This document shows positions 1-19,954 of a stretch of DNA of 19,954 nt, piece after piece. Numbering within the stretch: the stretch's first letter is position 1; each line of letters starts with the position of its first letter. Origin of the DNA: Candidatus Planktophila sp. (GTDB lineage: Bacteria > Actinomycetota > Actinomycetes > Nanopelagicales > Nanopelagicaceae); the NCBI GenBank assembly GCA_030832135.1, contig JAURJS010000068.1:1-19954 (forward strand), given 5' to 3'. The translations under genes and the position numbers were made by a program. The notes under the pieces are model-generated. The model was not told the origin of the DNA, made no database searches, and saw only the letters and a program-made list of their open reading frames with translations.

Positions 1-486
1 GGCCTTGCAACAGTTGCAGCGGTAGCAGTACTTGGCTCAACACTCGCAGCTAACATCTCACTCGGATCAGGTTCAGCAATTGAATTCGGTCAGGGTGTTC
101 AGACAACCTCTGCTTGCGATGACTCAATCACATTGTCACCAAAGGTGACCTTCGTTAACAGCTCTTCAAATCCACAGTTCTTCTTGTCAACTGTGTCATT
201 CACAGGCGTTAACTCAACTACAGCTGGCTGCCAGGGTAAGACACTTACTCTCAATGCATACGGTGATTCATCTGCTACACCACTCCAGTTAGCGACAGTG
301 GGCTCATCAGCTCTCTCAGCCGCAACAATCGGAATCACAGCTACAACACCTACTTCTGCAGCTGGAACAACAATTGCAGGCGTTACAGGTAATGCTTCAA
401 CCACACATGCTTTTGATCTTGGATTTACGATTCCATCATCAACATCAGGCGCGGTTTACAAGCTCACTCTCCAGAGCTCAAACTAA
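1..486 (+). CDS. Secreted/anchored GQG-ACD domain protein (5' end cut off)
   Basis: The reading frame is open from the first base of the window to TAA at 484-486, so the start lies upstream. The visible 161 residues begin inside a hydrophobic helix ending in LAANIS, followed by IEFGQG and TTSACD, then a Thr/Ser-rich beta-strand-like region. Cys39 and Cys77 (numbered from the window edge) match cysteines in the proteins at 633-1289 and 3567-4532, so a disulfide is likely. The helix followed by Ala-Asn resembles the SipW-processed signal of TasA, and a SipW-type peptidase is encoded at 1292-1987. A strong hairpin follows at 519-563. Function is not recognised; I infer a surface fibre or pilin-like subunit. 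Low Lys/Arg content and many Thr/Ser/Ala fit an extracellular polymer subunit. Confidence 0.85.
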   Translation, partial: GLATVAAVAVLGSTLAANISLGSGSAIEFGQGVQTTSACDDSITLSPKVTFVNSSSNPQFFLSTVSFTGVNSTTAGCQGKTLTLNAYGDSSATPLQLATVGSSALSAATIGITATTPTSAAGTTIAGVTGNASTTHAFDLGFTIPSSTSGAVYKLTLQSSN

Positions 487-518
487 GGAATTAATCCAAC
501 CCATTTAACGATTCTCTG

Positions 519-563
519 ATGCGGCGATAGAGGCCACCAACAGGTGCGCTTCTATCGCCGTAT
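519..563 (+). terminator. Strong hairpin between two subunit genes (terminator or attenuator)
   Basis: CGGCGATAGA (522-531) pairs perfectly with TCTATCGCCG (551-560). Pairs 519-521 with 561-563 extend it to 13 bp with one G-U, and an inner ACC/GGT pair closes a small apical loop. No T-run follows, so it is not a textbook intrinsic terminator. It could end most transcripts of the upstream subunit gene, allow partial read-through, or protect the 3' end of that mRNA. Confidence 0.6.
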
Positions 564-587
564 TAAGGGAGTAGTTAAGTAAAAGGA

Positions 588-617
588 TTGAATTCTAAAT
601 CAGTTATCAAGTTAGAT
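588..617 (+). promoter_or_regulatory. Possible sigma-70 promoter of the surface-protein operon
   Basis: TTGAAT (588-593) and TTAGAT (612-617) are separated by 18 bp, 15 bp upstream of the ATG at 633. It lies after the hairpin at 519-563 and before the tightly packed genes 633-5205, so it could drive them independently of the upstream subunit gene. The purine run at 621-626 may serve as a weak ribosome site. Confidence 0.4.
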
Positions 618-632
618 TTTAGAGAGAAGTAA

Positions 633-1289
633 ATGAATATCCTTAAGCGTTACGAGAGCGATGACTTTGATGAGTCATATGCTTTTGACGACGCTGAATA
701 CGGGGATATTGAAGCAAGTGGAAGTTCAAAGCCCTTCCTCGTGAAGGCAATTGCAATGATCTTGGCTGTGACCGGTATTGCCTACGGTGCCAACATTGCG
801 CTTTCGCCATCTGGCTCAGTCACTGAGTTTGGACAAGGATTTGTAACTACAGCAGCCTGTGACACAAATGGTGGAATTACCATCATTCCTTACGCAGGTT
901 TTATCAATGACACCGGCACCGGTAAGTTCAGCCTCGACTCGATTATTCTCGAGAATGTCGATGCGGCTTGTGTGGGTGAAGATTTCACAATTCAGGTTTA
1001 CGGTGAGACCGGAACCGCTCTCACAGTCAGTGAGTCCGCAACAGCGGCTAACGGCGCCTCCTATGTTCAATTTGATCTAGGCCGCTTCTACTTCCAGGAT
1101 TCTTCGACAGTCCTTGCTATCGATAGGTCCTATATCGACTACGACGTTCTCACCGATACAAGTGCAGGTTCAACTGAATTTACCAGCAACCAATCTTCAA
1201 TTCAGATTACATTCGACCCAGATCGCACGCTCTCATTTGCAGATGCGACAGTAATTCGCAGAATTACGATTCAAACCGTCAAGCACTGA
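633..1289 (+). CDS. Signal-anchored GQG-ACD domain protein, putative fibre subunit
   Basis: This 218-residue protein has an unusual acidic N-terminal tail (about residues 7-28, rich in Asp/Glu), a hydrophobic helix (about 35-55) ending YGANIA, then TEFGQG and TTAACD (Cys76) and DAACVG (Cys113). The rest is predicted beta-rich. The helix-GQG-ACD core aligns clearly with the partial protein at 1-486, and the domain recurs at the C-terminus of 3567-4532. The Ala-Asn-Ile after the helix resembles the cleavage region of TasA/camelysin proteins, and the next gene, 2 bp downstream, is a SipW-type signal peptidase, so I infer it is the substrate. No known function is recognised. The long acidic cytoplasmic leader is odd for a signal peptide and may keep the precursor from being exported or cleaved too early. 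Confidence 0.85.
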   Translation: MNILKRYESDDFDESYAFDDAEYGDIEASGSSKPFLVKAIAMILAVTGIAYGANIALSPSGSVTEFGQGFVTTAACDTNGGITIIPYAGFINDTGTGKFSLDSIILENVDAACVGEDFTIQVYGETGTALTVSESATAANGASYVQFDLGRFYFQDSSTVLAIDRSYIDYDVLTDTSAGSTEFTSNQSSIQITFDPDRTLSFADATVIRRITIQTVKH

Positions 1290-1291
1290 CC

Positions 1292-1987
1292 ATGGCCTCA
1301 GAGGTAATGCGCCGCCCTCTCTTTGAAGCAACATCAACTGAAGAGATGTGGGTTGAAGGTCAATCACAATATGCTGATTCAAAGATTTTGCTGACAATTT
1401 CTAATGCCAATGGTGAAAAGACAGTTTTAATTACGCCACATGAAATAACTCCAACTAAATCAAAGTTATTCGTCCAAGCACCGCCAGAGCGAATTGCAAC
1501 CCCTGCGCAGGCGCGAAATAACAAAATTGGCCAGGTTGTTAAGTTTCTTGGATATGCCCTCAGCGCCATCTTGATTTCATTCTCAGTTCTTTCGGCATCA
1601 GGATTTGTTAAGGCGCGAATTGTTCTAACCGGTTCGATGGAACCGGTAATTCATGCAGGAGATATTGTTCTTTTGGCACCCACACCTCGCACGCAACCTG
1701 AGTTAGGTGATATCGCTGCCTATACAGCTCGTCGCTTCAGTGGAGAGTCTGTAGGGATCTTTACCCACCGCATTATTGGCGGCGATCCAGTCAATGGTTG
1801 GTTGATGAAGGGTGATAACAACCCAACTCCCGATGTGCAGAAGCCTAAAGCTGAAGATATCAGCGGGGTTGTCTTCTTTGTCATTCCTTGGATCGGCAAA
1901 TTGATGGCGCCGAAGATGTTGATGATTCTCATTCCTGTGGCAGTTGGTATCTGGTTAATCATCGATACCTTAAAGGGGGACTCATAA
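1292..1987 (+). CDS. SipW-type signal peptidase (S26B, Ser/His dyad)
   Basis: This 231-residue membrane peptidase has the ER/SipW-type S26 boxes: TGSMEP with Ser115 as nucleophile, AGDIVLL, ELGDIAAY, THRIIG with His159 in place of the bacterial Lys, and KGDNNPTPD (173-181). One TM helix lies before the active site (about 82-104) and one after it (about 206-226), giving an extracytoplasmic catalytic domain. In Bacillus, SipW releases the TasA and TapA fibre proteins; here the flanking genes encode GQG-ACD proteins, the likely substrates. An extra ~80-residue cytoplasmic N-terminus is unlike ordinary SipW and is not recognised. The gene starts 2 bp after the upstream stop and its TAA overlaps the next ATG by one base (TAATG), so translation is probably coupled. 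Family assignment is firm; substrate is inferred. Confidence 0.93.
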   Translation: MASEVMRRPLFEATSTEEMWVEGQSQYADSKILLTISNANGEKTVLITPHEITPTKSKLFVQAPPERIATPAQARNNKIGQVVKFLGYALSAILISFSVLSASGFVKARIVLTGSMEPVIHAGDIVLLAPTPRTQPELGDIAAYTARRFSGESVGIFTHRIIGGDPVNGWLMKGDNNPTPDVQKPKAEDISGVVFFVIPWIGKLMAPKMLMILIPVAVGIWLIIDTLKGDS

Positions 1988-3570
1988 TGCGTCGCCTCAA
2001 AGTTATTGCTCTGACTCTGATTGCACTTCTACTTTCACCAGTAGCAGCTCACGCCTTTGATATTCCGCTCCTTACCTGGGAGCGCGGACGCGAACAGCAG
2101 GTGGTTCTCGGCGGCGGCGCATATACCCAGAAGTGGGTAGTAACCCTTGAGGGCAATGGGGTAGAAGCGAAGACCTTTAGCGCAAGCGATAAGAATGAGG
2201 CTGGCTACGTCGTTTACTCACTCTTTATTCCAAACGATCTTCCAACAGGTGCGTACTCCATTGTTACCAACGGTGAGGGCTCACCTCGCACAGTCGTTGC
2301 CGGTATCAACGTCATTGAGGCGCAGACTAAAACCGTCACCTCAAGCCTCTTTGATCTCACTTTAATTATTGCAATCTTTATCTTTCTGACTGGAATCGTC
2401 TCGACGATTAGGGCGCGTAAGTACACATACATTCCATTGCAGAGCACCCAGGTTCTTCCACGATTGACTGATCCAATCTTTGATGAGGAACCAAATTTCT
2501 GGGATCGACTTGAGGCCTCTCCTTATCGCATTCGAGTGCAGTCATTGATTGCGCTACGTCCCTCCCTGCTGCGCTTCCTGCTTATTCGCGAGGGCGAGCT
2601 AGCTCATCGCATCTCTAAGCATTTCTATGGCCTCTCACCCCTCATTGGATTGGTAGCTGGCGCAATCGCTGCCATTGAAGTCGGCAGAAATAATGGCTTA
2701 GCAGCGACGCCTATGACGATCTTTATCATCGTTGCAGCGATTGCTATCGCTGATGCATTTGCAGGAGTAGCTGCAACGCTAGGATTCTGGGCAATTCAAT
2801 TAGCAACTGGAAACATCACAAGCTTCCGAGATTTCTTGATTGCAATCGCAGTCGGCATCGCTTGGGTTGGACCTTCTCTCTTTGCAGCCCTTCTGCGAGA
2901 GACGATTAACCGTGATTTCGAGCCAAAGAGTGCGCGCGGATCTGATCCTATTAAGTTCTTAGGTGTTCTCGGTTCAAGCCTTGTTGGGGGAGCGGTCTTC
3001 TATCTCGGCCATGCGCTCATCAATAGCGTTATCTATACAGAAAGCCAAGCACGCTCTCTGACAATCATCCATGTGGCGATAGTGGCAGCAATGCTGCTCG
3101 TGCGCGGAGTTGCAGATGGCATCGTTCTTGAGCGCGACAGTGATCTACCGACTCGCGATGAATCATTCATCATCTCTCGTGTGAGTTCTCCGATAACTGC
3201 CTTCCTTGTATTCATGATGATCTTCGCCTTTGTCTATATCTGGACGGCAGGTGCGGCAAGCGCATTCTTCGTGGCAATCCTCTTCTCACTTCCATACTTC
3301 TTGATCTTCGTCCGATTGAATAAGATCTCTCGTCTCAATACTTCTCGGATTCCACGGAATATCCTCTTAGAGTCGGCCCTTATCTCAGCCATCGCCTTTG
3401 CAATCTTTAAGCAGATCTCGATGAAGCCGCTCTTACTCGACCAGCGGGCCAACCTCCTGCTCATGCTGACCGCCGTAGCCCCGGTAATTCACTCCATTTA
3501 TAGCGCGATTTACTCCTCTAACGAGGATAAGTTTTCTTTTGATGAGAATTCGGAGACAATAAGACCATGA
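1987..3570 (+). CDS. Polytopic membrane protein with extracytoplasmic beta domain
   Basis: The ATG at 1987 overlaps the preceding stop codon and begins a clear signal peptide (1-23, ending AAHA), so it is preferred to the in-frame upstream ATG at 1888, which lies inside the peptidase gene. The 527-residue protein has a beta-rich, Ig-like outer domain (about 24-115, opening with a TWERGREQ motif), a TM helix at 121-141, a cytoplasmic stretch (142-213), then roughly nine hydrophobic helices between 215 and 508. No transporter, flippase or enzyme motif is visible. It lies between the signal peptidase and the collagen-stalk protein and overlaps the latter by 4 bp (ATGA), so it is probably part of the same surface system: anchor, assembly platform or export helper are all possible. 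Function is not recognised. Confidence 0.88.
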   Translation: MRRLKVIALTLIALLLSPVAAHAFDIPLLTWERGREQQVVLGGGAYTQKWVVTLEGNGVEAKTFSASDKNEAGYVVYSLFIPNDLPTGAYSIVTNGEGSPRTVVAGINVIEAQTKTVTSSLFDLTLIIAIFIFLTGIVSTIRARKYTYIPLQSTQVLPRLTDPIFDEEPNFWDRLEASPYRIRVQSLIALRPSLLRFLLIREGELAHRISKHFYGLSPLIGLVAGAIAAIEVGRNNGLAATPMTIFIIVAAIAIADAFAGVAATLGFWAIQLATGNITSFRDFLIAIAVGIAWVGPSLFAALLRETINRDFEPKSARGSDPIKFLGVLGSSLVGGAVFYLGHALINSVIYTESQARSLTIIHVAIVAAMLLVRGVADGIVLERDSDLPTRDESFIISRVSSPITAFLVFMMIFAFVYIWTAGAASAFFVAILFSLPYFLIFVRLNKISRLNTSRIPRNILLESALISAIAFAIFKQISMKPLLLDQRANLLLMLTAVAPVIHSIYSAIYSSNEDKFSFDENSETIRP

Positions 3571-4532
3571 AGAAGTTCGCTGTCATCCTCCTAGTGCTCT
3601 CGCTGACTCGCATCGGTGTCGCCTACGCGGATTCAACTAACAGCACTGATTCACAGAATTATTTCTTCGGAACAAAATCTGCTTCTGAGAACCTCAATCA
3701 GGTTCTTGCACTCCTTGTCGGCCCTAAGGGCGATCCTGGACCTGCCGGAGTTGCAGGTAAAGATGGTCTGATCGGCATGGATGGTAAAGATGGCGTTGAC
3801 GGTAAAGATGGAAGAGACGGCCTCGATGGCGCTCCTGGCGCTGTTGGTGTACCCGGCTCCAGTGTTCTCTCTGTTGCCTTTACCGGAGCTCAAGGAAGTT
3901 GCACAGCTGGTGGAGTGAGATTTACCGATGGCGCAGGAAATGTGACCTATACATGTAATGGAACACCGGGCGCCAACGGCTTAAATGGAATCAACGGCAC
4001 CAATGGAACCAACGGCACAAACGGTATTAATGGTGGTTCTGGCAATGGTGGATCAATCACCTACGGCCAAGGCGTTATTGCAGTGGGCGCATGTGACACA
4101 GATGGCGTTGTCGCAATGGATGTGCAGCGCAAATTCAACGGATCAGACTTTGTATTCTCACAGTTCTCCTTTGGAGATTCAGCTGTCACCGATGGCGATG
4201 TGGATGCAGCTTGTAGTGGCCTGCCGATGTCGGTCTACATCACTATTAGCAACTCTGTGACAAAGGATTATCAGCGAAAGTATCAACCTGGCGATGTGAT
4301 TGTCTGTACCAAGACATACACAACAGCTCCTTGGCCAACTTCAAATCCTCAGTTCACCTTCTCTGATTCACTAACACCAAATATCTGCAAGATTAGCTCT
4401 CGAGATTCTGCAGTGACTTCTTACTTCGCAGGACGTGGCGAAACGCCAGTTCGTGTAGTAAACGGCATTATCAATATTGAAGATATCTCAACTGCCGATT
4501 ACACAGATCGCGTTGGTTTCTCAATTGGCTAA
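3567..4532 (+). CDS. Collagen-like stalk protein with C-terminal GQG-ACD domain
   Basis: This 321-residue protein has a signal peptide (1-21, VAYA then DS), a linker, a collagen-like region of 16 Gly-X-Y triplets (about 52-99, rich in Gly-Lys-Asp), a Cys-pair module (Cys112 to Cys130, SCTAGG...TYTCNG) seen between collagen blocks of other bacterial proteins, and a second Gly-X-Asn block (about 132-162). The C-terminal 150 residues carry TYGQG, VGACD (Cys176) and DAACSG (Cys216), the domain shared with 1-486 and 633-1289. The architecture suggests a trimeric extracellular stalk presenting a head domain. It overlaps the upstream gene by 4 bp, so it belongs to the operon. Without Pro hydroxylation the Lys-Gly-Asp triplets would stabilise a triple helix. 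Adhesion or fibre-tip function is inferred. Confidence 0.92.
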   Translation: MKKFAVILLVLSLTRIGVAYADSTNSTDSQNYFFGTKSASENLNQVLALLVGPKGDPGPAGVAGKDGLIGMDGKDGVDGKDGRDGLDGAPGAVGVPGSSVLSVAFTGAQGSCTAGGVRFTDGAGNVTYTCNGTPGANGLNGINGTNGTNGTNGINGGSGNGGSITYGQGVIAVGACDTDGVVAMDVQRKFNGSDFVFSQFSFGDSAVTDGDVDAACSGLPMSVYITISNSVTKDYQRKYQPGDVIVCTKTYTTAPWPTSNPQFTFSDSLTPNICKISSRDSAVTSYFAGRGETPVRVVNGIINIEDISTADYTDRVGFSIG

Positions 4533-5205
4533 CCAAGAGAGCGAGCAAGGCTCGCCAAAGGTTTCAAAGCTCCCTCTGCCAATCTCGGATTCACCACTTG
4601 TCATTGATCTTCCAGATGGACAGAAGATTGTCGTCGGAAAGATGACCCAGGGAAGTGTTATCGAGGTCGCAACGTGGCGTGGTGTAGGCCGGCCAGATAG
4701 TCGCACTAGCCGTCTTATGCTCGGCATGGGTAGCGGAAATGTTAATGATGATTCCGATGGCGATCAGAACCAACAAGCTGGTCCTGCGCGACCACCTGTA
4801 TCACGCAAGCCAGCAGGTGTTGCAGGAATTATTTTCTCTATTCAACACTTCTTTAAGAATTTCTCTCGCATCAACTGGTCTGCAACATTTAAAGCGCTTA
4901 TCCAGTCGCTCACATCAAAGAAGTCGAAGAAGGTTAAATCACCTTCGCTCTCATCTGAGAATCAAACAAGTTCTGAAATCTCAACATCTTCAAGTATCGC
5001 TCCTGCGATTACAGTCTCACCTGTTTCAGAAGATGCTGAGATTGAGGCATGGCTCAATAAGATCACTGAGAAGGCTTCACGCTCAACAGGTGCGACATCT
5101 GTGGCGAAAGCGAAGAGCTCAAGTAAGCCTGCTGTGAAGAAAAGTGCCGCAAAGAAGGCTCCGGTAACGAAAAAGGCCGCTCCTAAGTCAACTAAGAAGC
5201 GCTAG
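4525..5205 (+). CDS. Lys/Ser-rich operon protein of unknown function
   Basis: The start is unclear. There is no ATG near the head of the frame; TTG codons at 4477, 4513 and 4525 are possible, and 4525 is chosen because it overlaps the upstream gene by only 8 bp. The N-terminal ~70 residues form a small compact segment (LVIDLPDGQKIVVGK followed by EVATWRG and SRTSRLMLG) that looks conserved but which I cannot name. A mildly hydrophobic, amphipathic stretch follows, then a Ser-rich linker, and the last ~30 residues are a Lys/Ala-rich tail like histone H1 or HupB tails. No signal peptide is visible, so it is probably cytoplasmic, perhaps binding nucleic acid or the inner membrane surface. Its place at the end of the surface operon suggests regulation or assembly. 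Function unknown. Confidence 0.75.
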   Translation: MANQESEQGSPKVSKLPLPISDSPLVIDLPDGQKIVVGKMTQGSVIEVATWRGVGRPDSRTSRLMLGMGSGNVNDDSDGDQNQQAGPARPPVSRKPAGVAGIIFSIQHFFKNFSRINWSATFKALIQSLTSKKSKKVKSPSLSSENQTSSEISTSSSIAPAITVSPVSEDAEIEAWLNKITEKASRSTGATSVAKAKSSSKPAVKKSAAKKAPVTKKAAPKSTKKR

Positions 5206-5213
5206 CGGTAGGT

Positions 5214-5219
5214 TAGACT
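5214..5219 (+). promoter_or_regulatory. Leaderless -10 element TAGACT
   Basis: TAGACT ends 6 nt before the ATG at 5226, so transcription would start at or next to the start codon. It overlaps the intergenic space just after the lysine-rich gene and suggests that 5226-5567 has its own promoter. Confidence 0.5.
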
Positions 5220-5225
5220 TTGATT

Positions 5226-5567
5226 ATGAAGACGAAGCTCATTGCCCTTGCTGCAATCTTTGTCGTCCTCTTCGCCCTCGGATTCCGCGTTGTTCATCCT
5301 GAGAATGGACTTGAGAGCGCGATGGGATCTGCTAAATCAAGCATTGTGCTCTACAAGAGCTCAAGCAGCTATGCAGTTGGCCATAAGGTTGTCGTTGAAG
5401 TAGCTGGCCAAGGCAAGCAGACCGGAATTGTTAAATCTGCCAGCGATGGAAGCGTCGATGTAGATACCCTCGTATCTTTTGTCCGCGTCAAGAATGAAGA
5501 TGTTTTAGGTAAGTTAATTATCGTCATTCCATTCTTTGGAACAATTTTGGGCGTTGTAGGGCTCTAG
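5226..5567 (+). CDS. Small membrane protein resembling an inactive signal peptidase
   Basis: The ATG at 5226 is preferred to TTG at 5220 because of the leaderless -10 element. The 113-residue protein has an N-terminal TM helix (about 4-22) and a C-terminal hydrophobic end. By eye it parallels the nearby SipW-type peptidase: ESAMGS...SIVLY against TGSMEP...DIVLL, GHKVVVEV against LGDIAAYT, TGIV against THRII, and NEDVLGKLIIVIPFFG against AEDISGVVFFVIPWIG. The positions of the catalytic Ser and His are not conserved (Ala and a gap/Gly), and the KGDNN box is missing. It is therefore probably a catalytically dead S26-fold protein, perhaps a partner or inhibitor of the active peptidase. The similarity was judged by eye only; a plain small membrane protein is the alternative. 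Confidence 0.8.
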   Translation: MKTKLIALAAIFVVLFALGFRVVHPENGLESAMGSAKSSIVLYKSSSSYAVGHKVVVEVAGQGKQTGIVKSASDGSVDVDTLVSFVRVKNEDVLGKLIIVIPFFGTILGVVGL

Positions 5568-5606: not shown

Positions 5607-6089
5607 TTACTGCGGTGAGAGGGTAAGTCGTAAGACAATCTGGTTCTTCTTCAATAATTTACTTGCACCGAGATCAACCTTCGCATTCTGGAAGTACTCG
5701 ATCTCTGCCTTTGTAATCTCAGCGCTAAAGATGAGGGCTCTAAATTTCGCCTCATTCTCACCCTCTATATTTGGGTCGTAGCCGCCCACAATCTTTGCAA
5801 AGAGGACCTTTGAGCTGCGAGGAAGCTTCTCACCGATAATAAAGCCTTCAATATCTTTTTGGATCTGCACCGCATCAAATTTCTCATAGGCGATATTGAG
5901 GCCTTTAACATAATTTCCGCCGGCGATATTTCCAATATTTCCTGTTCCTGTTAATCCGCCGCCGATTGAGGGGACAAAGGAGATAGTTGCAAGGAAGATC
6001 ACCATGAGAGCAAGGAATGAATCAGCGAAGAGCCAACCACCTTGATGGGTGGAATCTTCTTCAACGCGACGAGGGCGTACTTTACGCAC
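5607..6089 (-). CDS. Small MotB/ZorB-like single-TM protein
   Basis: This 160-residue protein starts at GTG (6089) and overlaps the stop of the upstream gene by 8 bp, so the pair is translationally coupled. After a basic N-terminus comes WLFADSFLALMVIF, a single TM helix (about 19-40) with Asp23 at its start, the arrangement found in MotB, TolR/ExbD and ZorB, where the Asp carries protons. A Gly/Asn-rich linker follows, then an alpha/beta domain (about 66-158) that vaguely recalls the OmpA-like peptidoglycan-binding fold (IVGGY..., an Ala-rich helix and a terminal strand) but is shorter and lacks its clear signature. It may be the stator/plug partner of the two-TM protein at 6082-6879. Assignment is inferred; function unknown. 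Confidence 0.8.
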   Translation of the reverse strand: MRKVRPRRVEEDSTHQGGWLFADSFLALMVIFLATISFVPSIGGGLTGTGNIGNIAGGNYVKGLNIAYEKFDAVQIQKDIEGFIIGEKLPRSSKVLFAKIVGGYDPNIEGENEAKFRALIFSAEITKAEIEYFQNAKVDLGASKLLKKNQIVLRLTLSPQ

Positions 6090-6879
6090 GACGTGTCTTT
6101 CTACGCTTTGGCTTAGCTAATTCTGATGTCTCATCAGAGTCGAATGAGAATGATGAGAGAAATGAAGATGGCGCACTCTCTTTAGGGAGCTTGCGCGTTG
6201 CCTTCTCTAGATTCTGAGAAGCATCCTCCAACTTACCGGTGGCGCCGACGAGGCGGGAGATCGCACCAGCCAAGCTGGCATTCATTGTCACAGTTGAAAT
6301 CTTGCGCTTATCGTGAAGGGCGGCATGAATTTCAATGGCCAGAGCAAGACGTTCGCGATCAATCTCATTCTCAGCTCTTCGCTGGATCTCCTCCACCTGA
6401 TAGCCGGCGCGTGAGACATAGAGAGTCAGGGCTATGACGATGACCACGATGATAAAGTCGAGGCGAGCGACATTTCCAATCTTCCACTCATCATGAAGGA
6501 TCCCATAGCCGTTCTGCCAGAAATCAAGGAAGTTCACTACATCTGCGCCATTTGCCTCGATATATTGCGAGAAGCCAGTTGTTGCAGCGCTCACCGCGGC
6601 CCATGTCAGAGCAACCGGTGCGAAGACGAGGACGTTGCGAATAACGGTGAGCAGACGCACTAAACGTTCCTTCGCTCCCGCAGCATCTGTATCTGGGTGG
6701 GGGAGATACTCATTGGGATCTAACTCAGCCCAGATATGAAGATCCTTCTTACCTTCAATCGCAGCAAGTAGGCCGGTGAGGTAGGGATCGTTCTGGAGGT
6801 TGTACCGGGCAACCCATTGCGCAATCTTCGTTGCTAGCGCATCGACCGCCTGAGGTTTACGTGGCTTACGTGGCGCCAT
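6082..6879 (-). CDS. Two-TM coiled-coil membrane protein, partner of the MotB-like protein
   Basis: This 265-residue protein has a basic N-terminus, a soluble helical part, TM1 (about 80-101), an extracytoplasmic loop of ~38 residues with FLDFWQNGYG, TM2 (about 139-156), then a long charged helix likely to form a coiled coil (about 160-235) and a basic C-terminal tail (KPKRRKTRR). A purine-rich AAAGGA lies 6-11 nt before the ATG, making it one of the few genes here with a Shine-Dalgarno-like site. It overlaps the MotB-like gene downstream. The combination of a multi-TM coiled-coil protein with a small single-TM protein having an Asp at the membrane edge recalls ExbB/ExbD, MotA/MotB and ZorA/ZorB pairs, but no family motif is firm. 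Not recognised beyond that. Confidence 0.8.
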   Translation of the reverse strand: MAPRKPRKPQAVDALATKIAQWVARYNLQNDPYLTGLLAAIEGKKDLHIWAELDPNEYLPHPDTDAAGAKERLVRLLTVIRNVLVFAPVALTWAAVSAATTGFSQYIEANGADVVNFLDFWQNGYGILHDEWKIGNVARLDFIIVVIVIALTLYVSRAGYQVEEIQRRAENEIDRERLALAIEIHAALHDKRKISTVTMNASLAGAISRLVGATGKLEDASQNLEKATRKLPKESAPSSFLSSFSFDSDETSELAKPKRRKTRRA

Positions 6880-7550: not shown

Positions 7551-9206
7551 CTAGGCTTTAAACCAGACAGTTGTTCCAGAGGGAATCTTTCCATCGACAA
7601 GTGGCTGAGTAGTCAGTAGAACTTCACCCTTAGGCATTGGATATCTTCCACCCTTAAAGTTGGTGATGCAGTTCCAACCATTTGGTCGGCTAAAGTGGAG
7701 AACATTCTCACGTGAAGTCTTATGCCAGGTGATCTCTTCTGCGCATTGCAATTCGCGTCGAAGTTTGAGCGCCTTGCGGAAGATCTCAAGTGGAGACTCT
7801 GGAACGCCATCTTCGGCCTCGACGGAGTAACTTCCAAACCACTCTGGTTGCGGAAGGTGTGGTGAGCCATCACCAAATCCAAAGTTCTCTCCCGCTCGAG
7901 TCCAAGGAAGCGGAACTCGAGCACCATCACGGCCCTTCGCCTTCTTATGGTTTCGCAGGTAGATCGGATCCTGAATTTGATCTTCAGGGATATCGGCAAC
8001 CTCATGGATTCCAAGCTCATCACCTTGATAGATATAGGTGCAGCCAGGAAGAGCCAAGATAAAGACATTGGCAGCGACCGAGCACTGTGTGCCGATCTCA
8101 AAATCAACAGGGTGTGATGTGCCATTTCCTAGCAACCATTCATCGCGATCAACGACAGGATGGAGCCCCTGCTTTGTCGCATAACGCATCTGATCGTGGT
8201 TGCCGAGCGTCCAGGTTGTGGAGGAGTTGTTCTTCTTCGCCATCTCAAGGCTATCTGTCACGCAATGTTTAAAGCTTGCAGAGTCGAATGTGGCATCGAT
8301 AAAGCGGAAGTCGAAGCACTGTCCGAGAGTCTCTTCACTTGCATAGAGCGGCAGGCGGCTGGGATGAACATTTGCCTCAGCAACAGCTACGCGTGGTGGG
8401 TCGTATGAGTTAAAGAGCGTGCGCCAAGTCTTATAGACCTCAAGAACCTCATTGCGATCCATCAAGATTCCTGTGCCATTGAGATCGCGTGGCTCCTCAT
8501 ATTCCATAGTCGCGCGCATGCGAAGGGGCTCAGAGAGATCTTTCTTCAGCGCATGTGCAACATCGATACGGAAACCATCAACGCCACGGTCAGCCCAGAA
8601 TTTAAGCGTCGCGAGGAAATCAGCTTCCACCTCAGGGTTATCCCAATTCCAATCAGGTTGCTCAGGAGCGAACCAGTGCATGTACCACTGATTGCCTTCG
8701 CCTCCCCAGACAGATTCGTGTGTCCATGCAGATGGAGCAAAGTGAGATGGCCAATCAGTGGGAGGAAGTTCACCATTGGCGCCGCGACCATCACGGAAGA
8801 TATAGCGATTGCGCTCGGCAGATCCTGGAGCTGAAGCAATCGCATCCTTAAACCATTGATGGAGATTAGAGGAGTGGTTCGGAACGATATCTACAAAGAC
8901 TCGGATGCCAACGTTATGTAGTGCGGCGAGCATCTCATCGAAATCATCGAGCGTGCCCAGCTTTGGATCAACGTTGCGATAGTCATCAACATCGTAACCA
9001 CCATCGGCGAGAGCCGATGGATAGAAAGGAGATAGCCAGACAGCATCGAGGCTCAGAGATTTGAGATAGTCGACGCGAGAGGTAACGCCCTTGAGGTCGC
9101 CGATTCCATTTCCATCTGCATCTGCAAAGCTTCGTGGGTAGATTTGGTAGATCGCAGCTTGGCGCCACCAGTTCTTATCTGTGCTTAATCCATGGCTCAA
9201 TGACAT
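7551..9206 (-). CDS. Alpha-glucosidase, GH13 family
   Basis: This 551-residue cytoplasmic enzyme has no signal peptide and has the length usual for oligo-1,6-glucosidase/alpha-glucosidase. GH13 regions are all visible: WWRQAAIYQIYPRSF (14-27), DIVPNHSS (106-113), GFRIDVAHAL with nucleophile Asp215, VAVAEAN with acid/base Glu277, and LGNHDQ with transition-state Asp338, followed by YQGDELGI (393-400). It resembles actinobacterial GH13_30-type enzymes that release glucose from the non-reducing end of maltose-type or sucrose-type sugars; exact substrate cannot be read from sequence. A secreted pullulanase at 17885 suggests uptake and hydrolysis of alpha-glucan fragments. The ATG at 9206 is preceded by TAGGCT with 6 nt spacing. 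Upstream direct repeats (9242 and 9284) may bind a regulator. Confidence 0.96.
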   Translation of the reverse strand: MSLSHGLSTDKNWWRQAAIYQIYPRSFADADGNGIGDLKGVTSRVDYLKSLSLDAVWLSPFYPSALADGGYDVDDYRNVDPKLGTLDDFDEMLAALHNVGIRVFVDIVPNHSSNLHQWFKDAIASAPGSAERNRYIFRDGRGANGELPPTDWPSHFAPSAWTHESVWGGEGNQWYMHWFAPEQPDWNWDNPEVEADFLATLKFWADRGVDGFRIDVAHALKKDLSEPLRMRATMEYEEPRDLNGTGILMDRNEVLEVYKTWRTLFNSYDPPRVAVAEANVHPSRLPLYASEETLGQCFDFRFIDATFDSASFKHCVTDSLEMAKKNNSSTTWTLGNHDQMRYATKQGLHPVVDRDEWLLGNGTSHPVDFEIGTQCSVAANVFILALPGCTYIYQGDELGIHEVADIPEDQIQDPIYLRNHKKAKGRDGARVPLPWTRAGENFGFGDGSPHLPQPEWFGSYSVEAEDGVPESPLEIFRKALKLRRELQCAEEITWHKTSRENVLHFSRPNGWNCITNFKGGRYPMPKGEVLLTTQPLVDGKIPSGTTVWFKA

Positions 9207-15258: not shown

Positions 15259-15288
15259 TAGGAACTGCCCAGTAAGAATTACGTGCCA

Positions 15289-15915
15289 ATGAGAATGAGA
15301 TATAGCCGCAGCACCTTTGCACGCGTTGCCTCCTCATTTCTCGTCAACATCCTTGTCATTGCAGGGTTGAGCGTAGCTCCGCTATCGAGCGCAAGCGCCG
15401 CGCCCTCGGGTGTTGCTGGCAGCATTGTTCTTGGATCTGGAAATTACTTTAAATCGGTCGATTCATCAGAGTTCATCATGGGAGCAAGTGACTTCACCTT
15501 TGAGACGTGGGTCCATCCGACTTCTCGACCAAATAACGATTTCACTGGAATCATCAGTATCGGCATGCCCAGTGATTTAACAAATGGAATCAATGGCCAT
15601 GAGATTCGCATCGGCCAAAGTTTTGCCGGCGATGGCAAGCTCGGGTTCATGGCGCCGAATGATGCAAGTAGCGCCGATATTTGGACTTCAACATCATCTG
15701 CACTGCCTATCGGTGAGTGGACTCATTTGGCGCTTGTGCGAAATGGATCCACTATGACGCTCTACGTCAATGGTGTTGCAGGAGCAACCAGAACGGCTGT
15801 CGGTTTACCCATATCGGGTACCCGGCAAAGAGTGGTCTCGGTGCCTTCTTTATCTCGAAGAATGGTGGCTGGGGCGACGGTGAATTCTTCGGCTCGGTCG
15901 CAGATATTCGATTGA
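15289..15915 (+). CDS. N-terminal part of a frameshifted LamG/Gly-rich surface protein
   Basis: This frame begins with a signal peptide (basic MRMRYSRSTF, hydrophobic core, cleavage near SASAAPS) and the first three quarters of a LamG/concanavalin-like domain: DFTFETWVHPTS, then GEWTHLALVRNGSTMTLYVNG. After about 15810 the sequence loses family character (a run rich in Arg/Ser/Val) and stops at 15915. The missing end of the same LamG domain (GYPAKSGLG, ISKNGGWGDGEF, ADIRLIKGTAAYTSNFTPPTS) is encoded in the -1 frame from about 15810. One base is therefore missing near the CCC at 15808-15810, either in the genome or in the assembly. Start could also be GTG 15283. See the partner entry at 15717-17771. 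Confidence 0.85.
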   Translation: MRMRYSRSTFARVASSFLVNILVIAGLSVAPLSSASAAPSGVAGSIVLGSGNYFKSVDSSEFIMGASDFTFETWVHPTSRPNNDFTGIISIGMPSDLTNGINGHEIRIGQSFAGDGKLGFMAPNDASSADIWTSTSSALPIGEWTHLALVRNGSTMTLYVNGVAGATRTAVGLPISGTRQRVVSVPSLSRRMVAGATVNSSARSQIFD

Positions 15916-17771
15916 TAAAAGGAACTGCTGCATACACCAGCAATTTCACACCGCCAACGTCGCAGCTCTCTGCTGTGGGTGGAGGCAGTACCAAGGTCTT
16001 AATGAATACCAACTATTCGTCTGGAAATACTGTCGCCGATTACGCACATAACTCAGCGCCCGGAGGGCTACAAGTTACCGCGGTGGGGTCTCCCGCAAGT
16101 TCGAGCATCTCTCCATATCAGCCACTGGATACAGCGCTAGCGTTTACTCGTTCATCGAGTATGTCTGCCGCTAGTAATTCGGCAACGGCGCCACTGCAAA
16201 ATCTCAGTAACTACACCGTTGAAGGTTGGGTAAAACCAAATTCAGCGTGCATCGGGGTGGGAATACGATGTGAGACTTTGGTGCGAGATGGTGATTACGA
16301 TATCGCGATCTCTGACGGCACTTATAAATTGGTGATCTATTTCAATGGCACATCCAACACTGGTTGGATTGATACGGGAGTAGTTCCGGAAGCTGGAGCC
16401 TGGTCACATATTGCACTCACTCGCAATGGAACAGCCATAAAGTTTTATCTCAATGCAGCTCTCCTATATTCATATACGCTCTCTTCAGCTGTTGCTTCTA
16501 GCTACACAAATATTCCTTTCCGAATTGGATATGCCGGTTACGGCTCGACTTATTTTGATGGCGCTATAGATGAGGTGAAGCTCTGGAATACCGAGCGAAG
16601 CCTGGCGCAGATTCAAGGAAATTTATATTCAGCTCCTACGCTGAGTGACTCCACGCTCCTTGCTTACTATGACTTCAACACTGGCCAAGGTGCGACAGTT
16701 GCTAATAGAAAAGTTGGTGCTGCTGCAACATCTTTCTTATCCCTTACGAATTCGCCAGCATGGAGCGATGTGAAGATACAGAGCTCAAGTGGATCCGGCG
16801 TAACCGTCACCTTCCCAAGGTCGTATATCAATACTTCAGGTGGATTTACGCTTCCAGCTACCGTTACTGGGTTTGACTACCTCGTTGTCGGCGGCGGCGG
16901 TGGTGGTGGAAACGGTCACGATAATGGTGGCGGTGGCGGCGGCGCGGGTGGAATGGTGCTTACGGGATCTTCAACTATCGCCGCTGGCGCTGTTGTTGCC
17001 GCAAAGGTTGGAGCCGGTGGAGCCGGTGGTGCTAATACACGATCAACGCTCTCTGGTTCATCGGGAGACTCTTCGATAATTGGAAGCGTTACATCACTTG
17101 GTGGAGGTGCAGGAAGTGGCTCACGCAACTATCCCACCGGTGCTCAATTAGGAGGAGTCAGGCAAAGCGGATCGATAACTTCGGCAGCTGGAGGCAATGG
17201 CGGCGGTGGAGGCTACGGCGGAGGCGCAGGAGAAGCTGGAGGCAATGGCTCTGGCTCGACTGCAGGTTCTGCTGGTGTTGGATTATCAGTAACTATCGGA
17301 GGCATCACTTCTACTTATGGCGGCGGTGGCGCCGGCGGCCCGGGCAGCACTAACTTTTCAGGTGCTTGGGGAGAGGCGAATATTGGAAAAGGTGGTGGCG
17401 CGGGAGCTGCTAGCAGTTCCTCTTCTCGCGCCGGTGGAATTGGTGGAAGCGGAATCATCATCATTTACTACGCCACAAGCAGTACCGCCACACTCTCTTA
17501 TTCAGTGGGGCAACCTGTCTATCGAACCCTTGGCACAATCACTGTAACTGCAACTACCACCGGAAAAATTACATTTTATGAGCGCGGCAAGGTAATCCCT
17601 GGATGTCGAAATAAATCGACCAATGGATCCTTTGTCGCAACCTGTTCTTGGAAACCAGCTACGCATGGAACCGTCTCGATACGTATTGTCTTTATGGCCA
17701 ATAGCGGTTCAAGCGCAAATACTTCAACAACGGCAACGTTCTTTGTGGCAAAGCGAGCTGGCCTGAGATAA
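15717..17771 (+). CDS. C-terminal part of the frameshifted LamG/Gly-rich surface protein
   Basis: The frame is open from 15717 (GTG), but real coding character begins near 15810, where it completes the first LamG domain. Then come a linker, a second LamG domain (LSNYTVEGWVKPN, AGAWSHIALTRNGTAIKFYLN, FDGAIDEVKLWNTERS), a glycine-rich block (about 16880-17470, opening FDYLVVGGGGGGG and closing GGSGIIIIYY, like bacterial Gly-rich domains), and a C-terminal Ig-like domain with a Cys pair (GKITFYERGKVIPGC...ATCSW). Together with the first part the intact protein would be about 830 residues, exported and probably a surface adhesin or carbohydrate-binding protein. No sorting motif or terminal TM helix is visible, so release into the medium is possible. 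Start of this part is not real if the frameshift is genuine. Confidence 0.85.
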   Translation: MDSFGACAKWIHYDALRQWCCRSNQNGCRFTHIGYPAKSGLGAFFISKNGGWGDGEFFGSVADIRLIKGTAAYTSNFTPPTSQLSAVGGGSTKVLMNTNYSSGNTVADYAHNSAPGGLQVTAVGSPASSSISPYQPLDTALAFTRSSSMSAASNSATAPLQNLSNYTVEGWVKPNSACIGVGIRCETLVRDGDYDIAISDGTYKLVIYFNGTSNTGWIDTGVVPEAGAWSHIALTRNGTAIKFYLNAALLYSYTLSSAVASSYTNIPFRIGYAGYGSTYFDGAIDEVKLWNTERSLAQIQGNLYSAPTLSDSTLLAYYDFNTGQGATVANRKVGAAATSFLSLTNSPAWSDVKIQSSSGSGVTVTFPRSYINTSGGFTLPATVTGFDYLVVGGGGGGGNGHDNGGGGGGAGGMVLTGSSTIAAGAVVAAKVGAGGAGGANTRSTLSGSSGDSSIIGSVTSLGGGAGSGSRNYPTGAQLGGVRQSGSITSAAGGNGGGGGYGGGAGEAGGNGSGSTAGSAGVGLSVTIGGITSTYGGGGAGGPGSTNFSGAWGEANIGKGGGAGAASSSSSRAGGIGGSGIIIIYYATSSTATLSYSVGQPVYRTLGTITVTATTTGKITFYERGKVIPGCRNKSTNGSFVATCSWKPATHGTVSIRIVFMANSGSSANTSTTATFFVAKRAGLR

Positions 17772-17878: not shown

Positions 17879-17884
17879 TTGAGA

Positions 17885-19954
17885 ATGAGAAATCCACTCC
17901 GTAATTCCATTTTCTTTATCTCAATCGTGGCAGTTCTGGCCACACTCTTTCCTGCCATCTCAAATGCAGCCAACCCTGAGACGATAAAGCTCACCGTTCA
18001 CTACCAGCGCACTGAGCCTGATTATGCATCCTGGAATCTCTGGATCTGGAAGAACATGCTTACCGGCGCTGATGTGGATGTTAATAAGGCTGGCGTGCAA
18101 TTTACCGGTGAAGATGCCTACGGAAAGATTGCAACTGTAGAAATTCCTGGAATGGATAAGTTTGATAATTTAGGAATTATCGTCCGTAAGGGTGAGTGGC
18201 TCTCGAAAGATGTTCCGGATGATCGCTTCATCACAAAATTTGGTACAGATGGCGTCACCGAGATTTGGCTGCGCCAAAATGATCCAACAATTCACTACTC
18301 GCTCCCAACAACGCCAGCTCCGGTGGCTGCTGGCAATAAGCTGGCAAAGCTCTATGACTCACCAGAGTTTGCCGCAAAATACACATACGCAGGCAATGAT
18401 TTAGGAAATACCTACTCTCCAACTTCAACTAAGTTCCGAGTCTGGGCGCCAACTGCAATTGCAGTCACCCTGGTGACTTATGAGAAGGCTGAGACGCCAC
18501 TTGCATCGGGTGCTGAGATTGCAATGTCCTCAGATATCAACGGCACGTGGGTAACTACCCTTACAGGCGATAAGAATGGTCTGATCTATAACTATCGCAT
18601 CACTTTAGATGGCGCCAATAACGAAGCTGTTGATCCTTATGTCCGAGCCACGACAATCAACGGTGAGCGCGGTGTTGTAGTAGATCTATCAAAGACAAAT
18701 CCAGCTGGATGGAGCAAGGTAAGGCCGAAGTTCAGCGGTAAGCCAACCGATGCTGTTATCTACGAGCTCCATGTCCGAGATCTCTCCATGGATGCATCGA
18801 GTGGAATCTCTGCTGGAAATAAGGGCAAATTCCTTGCCTTTACCGAACTCAATACCAAGAGCGGGGGAGTTGCCACGGGAGTATCAGCAATCAAGGATCT
18901 TGGTATCACTCACGTTGAGCTACTTCCTGTTTATGACTATGCATCAGTCGATGAGGCAGCCCCAACATTTAACTGGGGTTATGACCCACAGAACTACAAC
19001 GTCCCTGAAGGTTCATATAGCTCGAATCCAAGGAACCCAACAGCTCGCATAACTGAGCTCAAGAGCGCTATTTTGGCGATGCATAAGGTCGGCCTTCGAG
19101 TAAATATGGATGTCGTCTATAACCACGTCTATAACTCCAACACCTTCAGTCAGAACCTCATCATTCCCGGTTACTTCTTCCGCACCGATGAGAATGGAAC
19201 TCTGACCAATGGCAGCGGATGCGGCAATGATGTTGCTTCGGAGCGATCAATGGTTCGAAAGTTCATTGTTGATTCAGTCAAGTATTGGGCAAGTGAATAT
19301 AACTTTGATGGCTTCCGCTTTGACTTGATGGGGTTGATGGATATCACCACAATCAATGAAGTCTCAGCTGCCCTCAAAGCAATCGATCCAACAATCATCA
19401 TCATTGGTGAGGGCTGGGAGATGGGAACCTTGCCGCAAGAGTTGCGAGCTAGCCAAACAAATATTGCCAAGCTCTCCAACGTTGCACACTTCAATGATCA
19501 ACTTCGCGATGGTTTGAAGGGCTCTGTCTTTAAGGCAGCCGACACAGGATGGGCAACAGGCAAGTCGACTGCCGTGGGTGATATCTACCCAGGTATTGCT
19601 GGTAACACTCTCTATAACCCTGCTTTTCTCAATAAGTGGGTTACGAGCGCACCAGTGCAGTCGGTGAACTATGTAGAGGCACACGACAACCTCACCTTGG
19701 CAGATAAGTTGACTGCTAGCGTGAAGGGAATTTCTCCAACCGGTGTTGCGCAGATAAGCCAATTTGCGACTTCAGTAGCCTTCTTATCTCAAGGCATTCC
19801 ATTTATGCAGGCAGGACAAGAGTTCTTGCGTTCAAAAAATGGTGATGAGAATAGTTACAAATCAGATGATGCAACTAATTCGCTTAAGTGGGGCACTAAG
19901 GTGAAGTACTCCGCCACAGTCAATTACTACAAGGGGCTAATCGCCCTTCGCGCA
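17885..19954 (+). CDS. pulA: Secreted type I pullulanase (3' end cut off)
   Basis: The first 690 residues are present; the frame is still open at the window edge. A signal peptide (1-28, ending ISNAA) is followed by a CBM41/PUD-like alpha-glucan-binding domain (about 33-135, IKLTVHYQRTEPDYASWNLWIW), a CBM48-like domain (about 165-270, FRVWAPTA), and the GH13_14 catalytic barrel. Visible signatures are VIYELHVRDLS, NWGYDPQNYNVPEGSY (the type I pullulanase motif), MDVVYNHV, FDGFRFDLMG with nucleophile Asp480, IIGEGWE with Glu509, and VEAHDN with Asp601. It should cleave alpha-1,6 branches of pullulan, amylopectin or glycogen outside the cell. The products would suit the cytoplasmic GH13 alpha-glucosidase at 7551-9206. 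Expected full length is roughly 850 residues or more. Confidence 0.96.
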   Translation, partial: MRNPLRNSIFFISIVAVLATLFPAISNAANPETIKLTVHYQRTEPDYASWNLWIWKNMLTGADVDVNKAGVQFTGEDAYGKIATVEIPGMDKFDNLGIIVRKGEWLSKDVPDDRFITKFGTDGVTEIWLRQNDPTIHYSLPTTPAPVAAGNKLAKLYDSPEFAAKYTYAGNDLGNTYSPTSTKFRVWAPTAIAVTLVTYEKAETPLASGAEIAMSSDINGTWVTTLTGDKNGLIYNYRITLDGANNEAVDPYVRATTINGERGVVVDLSKTNPAGWSKVRPKFSGKPTDAVIYELHVRDLSMDASSGISAGNKGKFLAFTELNTKSGGVATGVSAIKDLGITHVELLPVYDYASVDEAAPTFNWGYDPQNYNVPEGSYSSNPRNPTARITELKSAILAMHKVGLRVNMDVVYNHVYNSNTFSQNLIIPGYFFRTDENGTLTNGSGCGNDVASERSMVRKFIVDSVKYWASEYNFDGFRFDLMGLMDITTINEVSAALKAIDPTIIIIGEGWEMGTLPQELRASQTNIAKLSNVAHFNDQLRDGLKGSVFKAADTGWATGKSTAVGDIYPGIAGNTLYNPAFLNKWVTSAPVQSVNYVEAHDNLTLADKLTASVKGISPTGVAQISQFATSVAFLSQGIPFMQAGQEFLRSKNGDENSYKSDDATNSLKWGTKVKYSATVNYYKGLIALRA

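Follow-up and report, generated by a model that had tools for sequence, protein, structure and literature searches.

What does a bacterium make with a SipW-type signal peptidase when the proteins encoded around it do not look like TasA? The question is raised by a gene cluster of Candidatus Planktophila sp. that occupies the first 5.6 kb of the 19,954-nucleotide stretch analysed here (GenBank assembly GCA_030832135.1, contig JAURJS010000068.1, our G000:C30; hereafter the window), where seven genes, A to G, run in the same direction, on the forward strand. An earlier, sequence-only reading had proposed an undescribed fibre or adhesive surface system that follows the logic of tapA-sipW-tasA with subunits unlike TasA. 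The genes prove to form a real, conserved system. We would give about even chances to the view that it makes an adhesive surface fibre, the subunits of which are cut by the dedicated SipW-type peptidase and are likely joined by donor-strand exchange.

A shared domain beside a SipW-type signal peptidase

Genes A (1..486), B (633..1289) and E (3567..4532) encode a common domain, termed GQG here, in which (F/Y)GQG is followed by ACD and then by a second Cys. The motifs are AANISL..IEFGQG..SACD in A, GANIAL..TEFGQG..AACD in B and ITYGQG..GACD in E, and the second Cys stands 38, 37 (C76, C113) and 40 (C176, C216) residues, respectively, after the Cys of ACD, within the range of 37-40 first noticed. 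In A and B the domain follows a hydrophobic helix ending in Ala-Asn-Ile, also as described from the sequence; the GQG domain of E has no membrane helix of its own. Gene A is cut at its 5' end by the contig end, which is where the locus starts in the window; its other end, 5567, had been placed correctly. The source genome is 59.94% complete, in 118 contigs, and the start of the A product (MEILKFENAP...) was found on another of them, G000:C39, where gene U is followed by a further GQG gene, A0, and then by the 5' part of A. Because the end of G000:C39 repeats the first bases of the window (one difference in 120 bases, compared by eye), the whole operon most likely reads U-A0-A-B-C-D-E-F-G.

The GQG domain of A0 begins likewise (LEFGQG, then ACD). 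In profile comparisons by hhalign, A0 matched A/B with 99% probability (E 2.4e-18 over 176 columns), A/B matched E with 94% (E 1.4e-7) and A0 matched E with 95% (E 4.3e-8). Judged by these profiles, the GQG domains of A0, A, B and E are homologous, sharing more than chance would give; the sequence-only reading had named a lack of relation among its three domains as fatal to its idea, and at 94-99% the profiles speak for relation. No curated family in Pfam or NCBIfam was matched over its cut-off by A, B, A0 or 70 A/B members. A search of 5.8 billion proteins returned 1298 relatives at E<=1e-5 among 7994 candidates scored, and no Pfam domain was found in the 240 listed homologues, 120 listed GQG relatives included. 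The A/B alignment members gave weak matches to 19 NCBIfam families, too few and too scattered for use; among those discarded as too few were VexA (2/70 members, E 3.6e-4), the putative pilus protein FilA (1/70, E 9.6e-4) and the fibril protein FapE (2/70, E 0.051). Against the sequences of solved structures, the A/B profile had no match up to E 10, and the A0 profile matched 20 sequences of a single viral fusion glycoprotein (best E 1e-4, others 0.018-0.25), which we took as chance. The core of the domain is predicted to be Ig-like from a structure model, made for B only. Searches of the PDB with the models of B and of D, a membrane protein described below, gave no fold match at E<=0.001; the rows were largely Ig-type domains, and the absence of TasA from the rows listed excludes nothing.

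Ahead of the domain, B has an acidic, presumably cytosolic tail (net charge -7 over residues 1-34) and the helix, with a predicted cut at AYG|ANI; in A, which was aligned with its orthologues, the helix ends STLA|ANIS. A helix-end junction, required as (A/G)|A, is present in 85 of 106 GQG proteins, with TxA|A in 62 of these and mainly AxG|A in the rest. Conservation peaks just behind it: the first 20 residues of the predicted mature protein (ANIALSPSGSVTEFGQGFVT for B and AASVTVGNGALEFGQGSQQA for one A0) average 2.82 bits in A/B, against 1.92 in the tail, 2.48 in the helix and 2.29 in the remaining domain, and 3.99 bits in A0, against 3.21, 3.14 and 3.25. In the monomer model of B this most conserved stretch has no ordered structure, pLDDT staying below 50 across residues 1-69.

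Gene C (1292..1987) encodes, by family score and motifs, a Ser/His signal peptidase of the SipW/ER type, as had been proposed. The protein reached 63.2 bits on TIGR02228 (cut-off 51.85), has the Ser motif LTGSMEP (Ser115) and the His motif FTHRI (His159), and carries an N-terminal part of ~75 residues ahead of its first helix. On the Bacillus SipW equivalog NF046067 it scored 34.3 bits, under the cut-off of 190.

Gene order and partner proteins

A peptidase-profile scan of named genomes yielded 43 loci, of which two distant ones, from an archaeon (L093) and a member of the Clostridiales (L094), were left out; the other 41 and the window form the 42 loci compared here, and places cut by contig ends are not counted. 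Two pairs, L065/L089 and L069/L087, are each two contigs of one metagenome-assembled genome. Since the loci were chosen through C, only the other genes test linkage. Where contigs allow, the order U-A0-A-B-C-D-E-F-G is nearly invariant: C and D are adjacent in 39/40 loci (the exception is L092), D and E in 34/34, E and F in 31/31 and F and G in 27/27. In 37 of 38 loci (L066 being the exception) a GQG gene lies upstream of C at a distance of <=400 nt, A0 and U are each in place in 18 of 19, and loci that show both A0 and C have one to three A/B genes between the two. The Ser motif of C is present in 42/42 loci and the His motif in 41/42, the single miss being cut by a contig end. Overlaps between genes had already been remarked on in the window (C/D 1 nt, D/E 4 nt, E/F 8 nt); that of D and E has exactly this length in 31 of the 34 loci. 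The expectation that the genes would be neighbours in related genomes is thus borne out, and the attribution to planktonic actinobacteria agrees with the labels of 40 of the 41 named loci, which are actinobacterial (6 are Nanopelagicaceae, Nanopelagicales or Planktophila); L086 is labelled as a beta proteobacterium, and loci labelled Streptomyces griseus or Bifidobacterium breve are taken as misnamed metagenome-assembled genomes.

Across 296 genomes of the family to which the window belongs, a strong A0 match (E<=1e-50) was found in 38, a D match (E<=1e-49) in 40 and both in 34; D occurred without a strong A0 in only 6 of 258 genomes (co-occurrence p 5e-34). The GQG domain as such is present in 57 of the 296, with at least 10 matches in seven of them, and a SipW-type peptidase over the TIGR02228 cut-off accompanies it in 41 of these 57 genomes as against 37 of the 239 others (p 3e-16). 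A strong A0 is absent from all 13 single-contig genomes listed for the genus of the window. An order-level search for A0 found matches in the same family only; it supports no statement on spread, as it does not show whether the sample held other families.

Gene D (1987..3570) encodes a protein with a signal peptide by eye, and its structure model, which shows an outer, Ig-like beta domain (residues 26-114) and about ten membrane-length helices, fits the polytopic membrane protein with an outer beta domain that was first described. Matches confined to the membrane part of D (E 1e-15 to 1e-10), in open frames of about 500-635 aa, were seen at 446737-447315 and 1390407-1391039 of G051:C1 and in other genomes, a single-contig genome without the operon among them; these frames may belong to a wider membrane-protein family. 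The product of gene E has a signal peptide by eye (..AYA|DS), a collagen-like Gly-X-Y stalk and the C-terminal GQG domain. Its collagen triple-helix repeats match PF01391 at 40.9 bits (gathering cut-off 27.2), and nine Gly of the collagen region do not vary among 19 aligned sequences, out of 33 collected. Gene F (4525..5205) starts with TTG and encodes the Lys-rich protein noticed earlier, with a Lys-rich tail, a net charge of +17 and a conserved stretch of the type SPLVIDLPDGQK..G..SVIEVATWRG.GRPDSRTSRLMLGM; having no signal peptide by eye, it looks cytosolic. Gene G (5226..5567), the conserved last gene, encodes one membrane helix and a small domain. An alignment of 26 G members weakly resembles the C-terminal part of the peptidase (hhalign 43.8%), and none of the 26 matched an NCBIfam peptidase family; as a lead, G might be an inactive signal peptidase-like partner, comparable with SipA. 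The collagen-like nature of E, the cytosolic look of F and the conservation of G had gone unremarked in the sequence-only reading. Scans of the operon proteins with Pfam, NCBIfam and PADLOC gave nothing over cut-off except the peptidase and the collagen repeats. A second, divergent cluster with a peptidase, D-like, collagen-like and GQG proteins was seen in L047 (G084:C17; 3199-3966, 7695-11376 and 13633-14436), and a 255-aa protein encoded there combines an F-like start with a G-like end, as a fusion of the two would.

Relation to TasA and the product of the cluster

Elsewhere in the genome of the window there is a distinct SipW-TasA pair. A search of the 38 A0 genomes with PF12389, for which the Bacillus subtilis control was positive, found TasA-like proteins in five, the genome of the window included. 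There the pair lies on G000:C64 (L046 2039-3414; L105): the TasA-like protein (31.9 bits, cut-off 22.5) is adjoined by a second SipW-type peptidase over the TIGR02228 cut-off and by a third small protein; in the other four genomes (G259, G206, G090 and G046) the TasA-like protein also lies beside a peptidase. Four peptidases from these pairs are 23-27% identical to C, with Ser115 and His159 aligned. By contrast, GQG profiles compared with the five TasA-like proteins gave 0.1% probability (hhalign), and neither A, B nor 17 A0 members matched PF12389. Because the SipW-TasA pair is separate and the GQG-TasA comparison stands at 0.1%, the genome of the window appears to contain two SipW-type peptidases beside unrelated partner proteins, and the separate pair is a natural control for the conclusion that GQG is not TasA. 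The idea of tapA-sipW-tasA logic with subunits unlike TasA holds well here.

The likeness to tapA-sipW-tasA of Bacillus subtilis resides in the placing of a Ser/His-type peptidase gene next to its likely substrates, a GQG gene lying upstream as described above, and in two features of the subunits themselves. Two papers report that TasA is processed by SipW, and poorly by Escherichia coli LepB, at TWA-AFND (PMC10269814), a site of the same TxA|A kind as the predicted GQG cut, and that the mature N-terminal strand of TasA, residues 28-38, completes the next subunit of the fibre as a donor strand (PMC9674648); in GQG proteins, too, a conserved strand occupies the predicted mature N-terminus. Unlike that operon, the present one has several kinds of GQG protein, with subunits unrelated to TasA by profile, and it has further genes with no counterpart there, for the polytopic D, the collagen-like E, F, G and U. 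E recalls the collagen-like adhesins Lcl and Scl in its PF01391 repeats and a weak similarity to their models, yet it falls far below the NCBIfam cut-offs (33.3 bits against 500 for Lcl, NF046116), has no LPXTG and ends in a GQG domain. No LPXTG sorting signal, as on the subunits of sortase-assembled pili, stands at the C-termini of A, B and E, which were read directly; the search did not extend to sortase genes. In the pilus islands of Group A Streptococcus, a signal peptidase-like protein, SipA, is reported to serve pilus assembly (PMC4049620), a role to which G might correspond as a peptidase-like partner; unlike SipA, however, C keeps its catalytic residues, and the relation of G to the peptidase is unproven. 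With the donor-strand fimbriae (chaperone-usher and type V) the GQG proteins would share an Ig-like core, in the model, and a conserved free N-terminal strand, the exchange itself being our proposal. E resembles the tip adhesin of such fimbriae, which has a pilin domain without a strand to donate. Unlike the organisms of those fimbriae, the bacteria studied here presumably have one membrane. No curated fimbrial family of NCBIfam or Pfam was matched over cut-off by the cluster proteins, with weak matches only, and no paper on this cluster was found in the open-licence PMC literature, which does not show it to be unpublished.

Many GQG matches lie in open frames of ~330-600 aa that are distant from the operon or on a different contig. 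Of such longer proteins nine were scanned, two beside the operon (L098:9402, next to A0, and L037:383, downstream of G) and seven elsewhere. Seven of the nine have adhesin-type C-terminal domains and two have nothing: Lcl_C occurs on four (on one over the Pfam cut-off, and on one together with Laminin_G_3), a Sortilin/BNR propeller on two and a Gly-rich domain on one. At the start of A/B-type proteins, ahead of the helix, an MxILxF-type tag is found in 40 of 58 tails against 0.23 expected, starts being fixed and 24 of 82 proteins having been dropped beforehand (junction pattern not found or tail too short); because the sequences are related, this is a measure of conservation and not of 40 events.

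How would such a system work? Dedicated processing and surface display of a subunit family unrelated to TasA are well supported by the linkage, and of the possible products an adhesive fibre is the likeliest. Peptidase C would cut A0, A and B where their hydrophobic helix ends, at (T/A)x(A/G)|A, in the pattern of TasA TWA|AFND, and the freed N-terminal strand (ANIALSPSGSVTEFGQG in B) would enter the next Ig-like subunit. The conserved yet disordered segment after the cut is what a donor strand would look like, and donor-strand joining is a specific prediction of this scheme. Because the GQG domain of E lacks a helix, it could accept a strand but not donate one, so that E may sit at one end of the fibre as a collagen-stalked adhesin. 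D would serve as the membrane assembly platform, F may dock charged cytosolic tails, and GQG proteins encoded elsewhere, with lectin-like or Lcl_C ends, could be clients that enter the same fibre. A role in adhesion is indirectly supported by the collagen repeats of E and by the Lcl_C, LamG and propeller domains of the other GQG proteins; of the fibre or adhesive system first proposed, adhesion has gained this indirect support, and the fibre stands as a prediction. As a tentative possibility, well short of even, we raise a new class of fibre, in which a SipW paralogue frees Ig-like GQG subunits, the N-terminal strand of each completes the next, one end is collagen-stalked, and the MxILxF tag recruits lectin- or Lcl-ended adhesins from across the genome, the whole operating in a cell that also has a true TasA system.

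The case for donor strands is an analogy with TasA: conservation behind the cut would equally arise from selection by the peptidase alone. Exclusive dependence on the peptidase is hard to square with four genomes, G079 (100% complete, one contig), G015 (99%), G227 (95%) and G226 (94%), that have GQG proteins and no peptidase over the cut-off. The cluster might instead be a dedicated SipW-type route of export and display without a fibre, the GQG proteins being released to coat the wall or held at D and U as single adhesins and the GQG segment acting as a recognition and anchoring tag. This is possible but on the unlikely side. The longer GQG proteins with Lcl_C, LamG, propeller or Gly-rich ends do look like single adhesins, conservation right behind the cut fits recognition by the peptidase, and the MxILxF tag resembles a sorting signal. 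Yet the short A0, A and B have little beyond one GQG domain, like shaft subunits, up to three A/B genes lie between A0 and C, and the conserved segment extends past the short stretch known to be read by signal peptidases.

That the GQG proteins are TasA homologues too distant for profiles, in a divergent tapA-sipW-tasA system, seems improbable to us, even though the peptidase type, the TxA|A junction, the small beta-rich subunits and the operon logic would all suit it: comparison with the TasA-like proteins of such genomes stops at 0.1%, PF12389 picks out a SipW-TasA pair of its own in the genome of the window, and the predicted Ig-like core, for which fold matches are weak, differs from the jelly-roll reported for TasA (PMC9674648). 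The least probable of these readings makes the GQG proteins uncleaved single-pass signalling receptors, with C processing something else. It could point to the B tails, 12 of 14 of which look acid-rich by eye, to the conserved tag, to the basic charge of F and to regulator-like genes seen by eye upstream in some loci, but it accounts neither for the small-x-small|A pattern with which the helix ends in 85/106 nor for the close genetic linkage to a signal peptidase whose catalytic residues are intact.

Should the adhesive fibre be correct, a GQG fibre is predicted to be a second use of the SipW-type peptidase, beside the unrelated TasA fibre. SipW-type peptidases would be uncoupled from TasA, the same peptidase logic going with an unrelated subunit family, so that a SipW gene next door would not by itself indicate a TasA-type fibre. 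Present in 38 of the 296 family genomes, as counted by A0, an adhesion system of this accessory and variable kind would imply attachment of some members to something, and phages and grazers could act on the surface variation that it offers. Proteins that are now hypothetical would also acquire testable roles.

Associated and neighbouring genes

Two genes on the reverse strand follow the operon in the window, X1 (5607..6089), for a membrane protein with an invariant GW..AD..L..M..FLATISFVP segment, and its partner X2 (6082..6879), with two hydrophobic helices by eye; both are possible associates. The pair lies downstream of the operon in 13 of the 42 loci and upstream in 5, and is unseen in 24, many of which are cut by contig ends. 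X2 is present in 26 of the 38 A0 genomes against 21 of the 258 others (p 9e-16), so it is linked to the operon, yet it is probably dispensable, because it is missing in five of the six A0 genomes of genus g4. X1 has an invariant Asp in a helix whose pattern we take to be MotB-like, a weak match; a MotAB-like pair was considered and set aside, MotB_plug having matched one of three X1 scanned at E 0.13 and the X1 of the window not at all. Upstream of the operon, L043 (9756-11806) and L044 (2960-5010) hold, by eye, a response-regulator-like gene and large membrane proteins. Elsewhere in the window, two genes named by eye as glycoside hydrolase family 13-like lie at 7551-9206 and 17879-19954, one of alpha-amylase type and one of pullulanase type cut by the contig end. 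Overlapping frames at 15283-15915 and 15717-17771 could, judged by eye, encode a single LamG-type surface protein interrupted by a frame break, with a glycine-rich part behind it.

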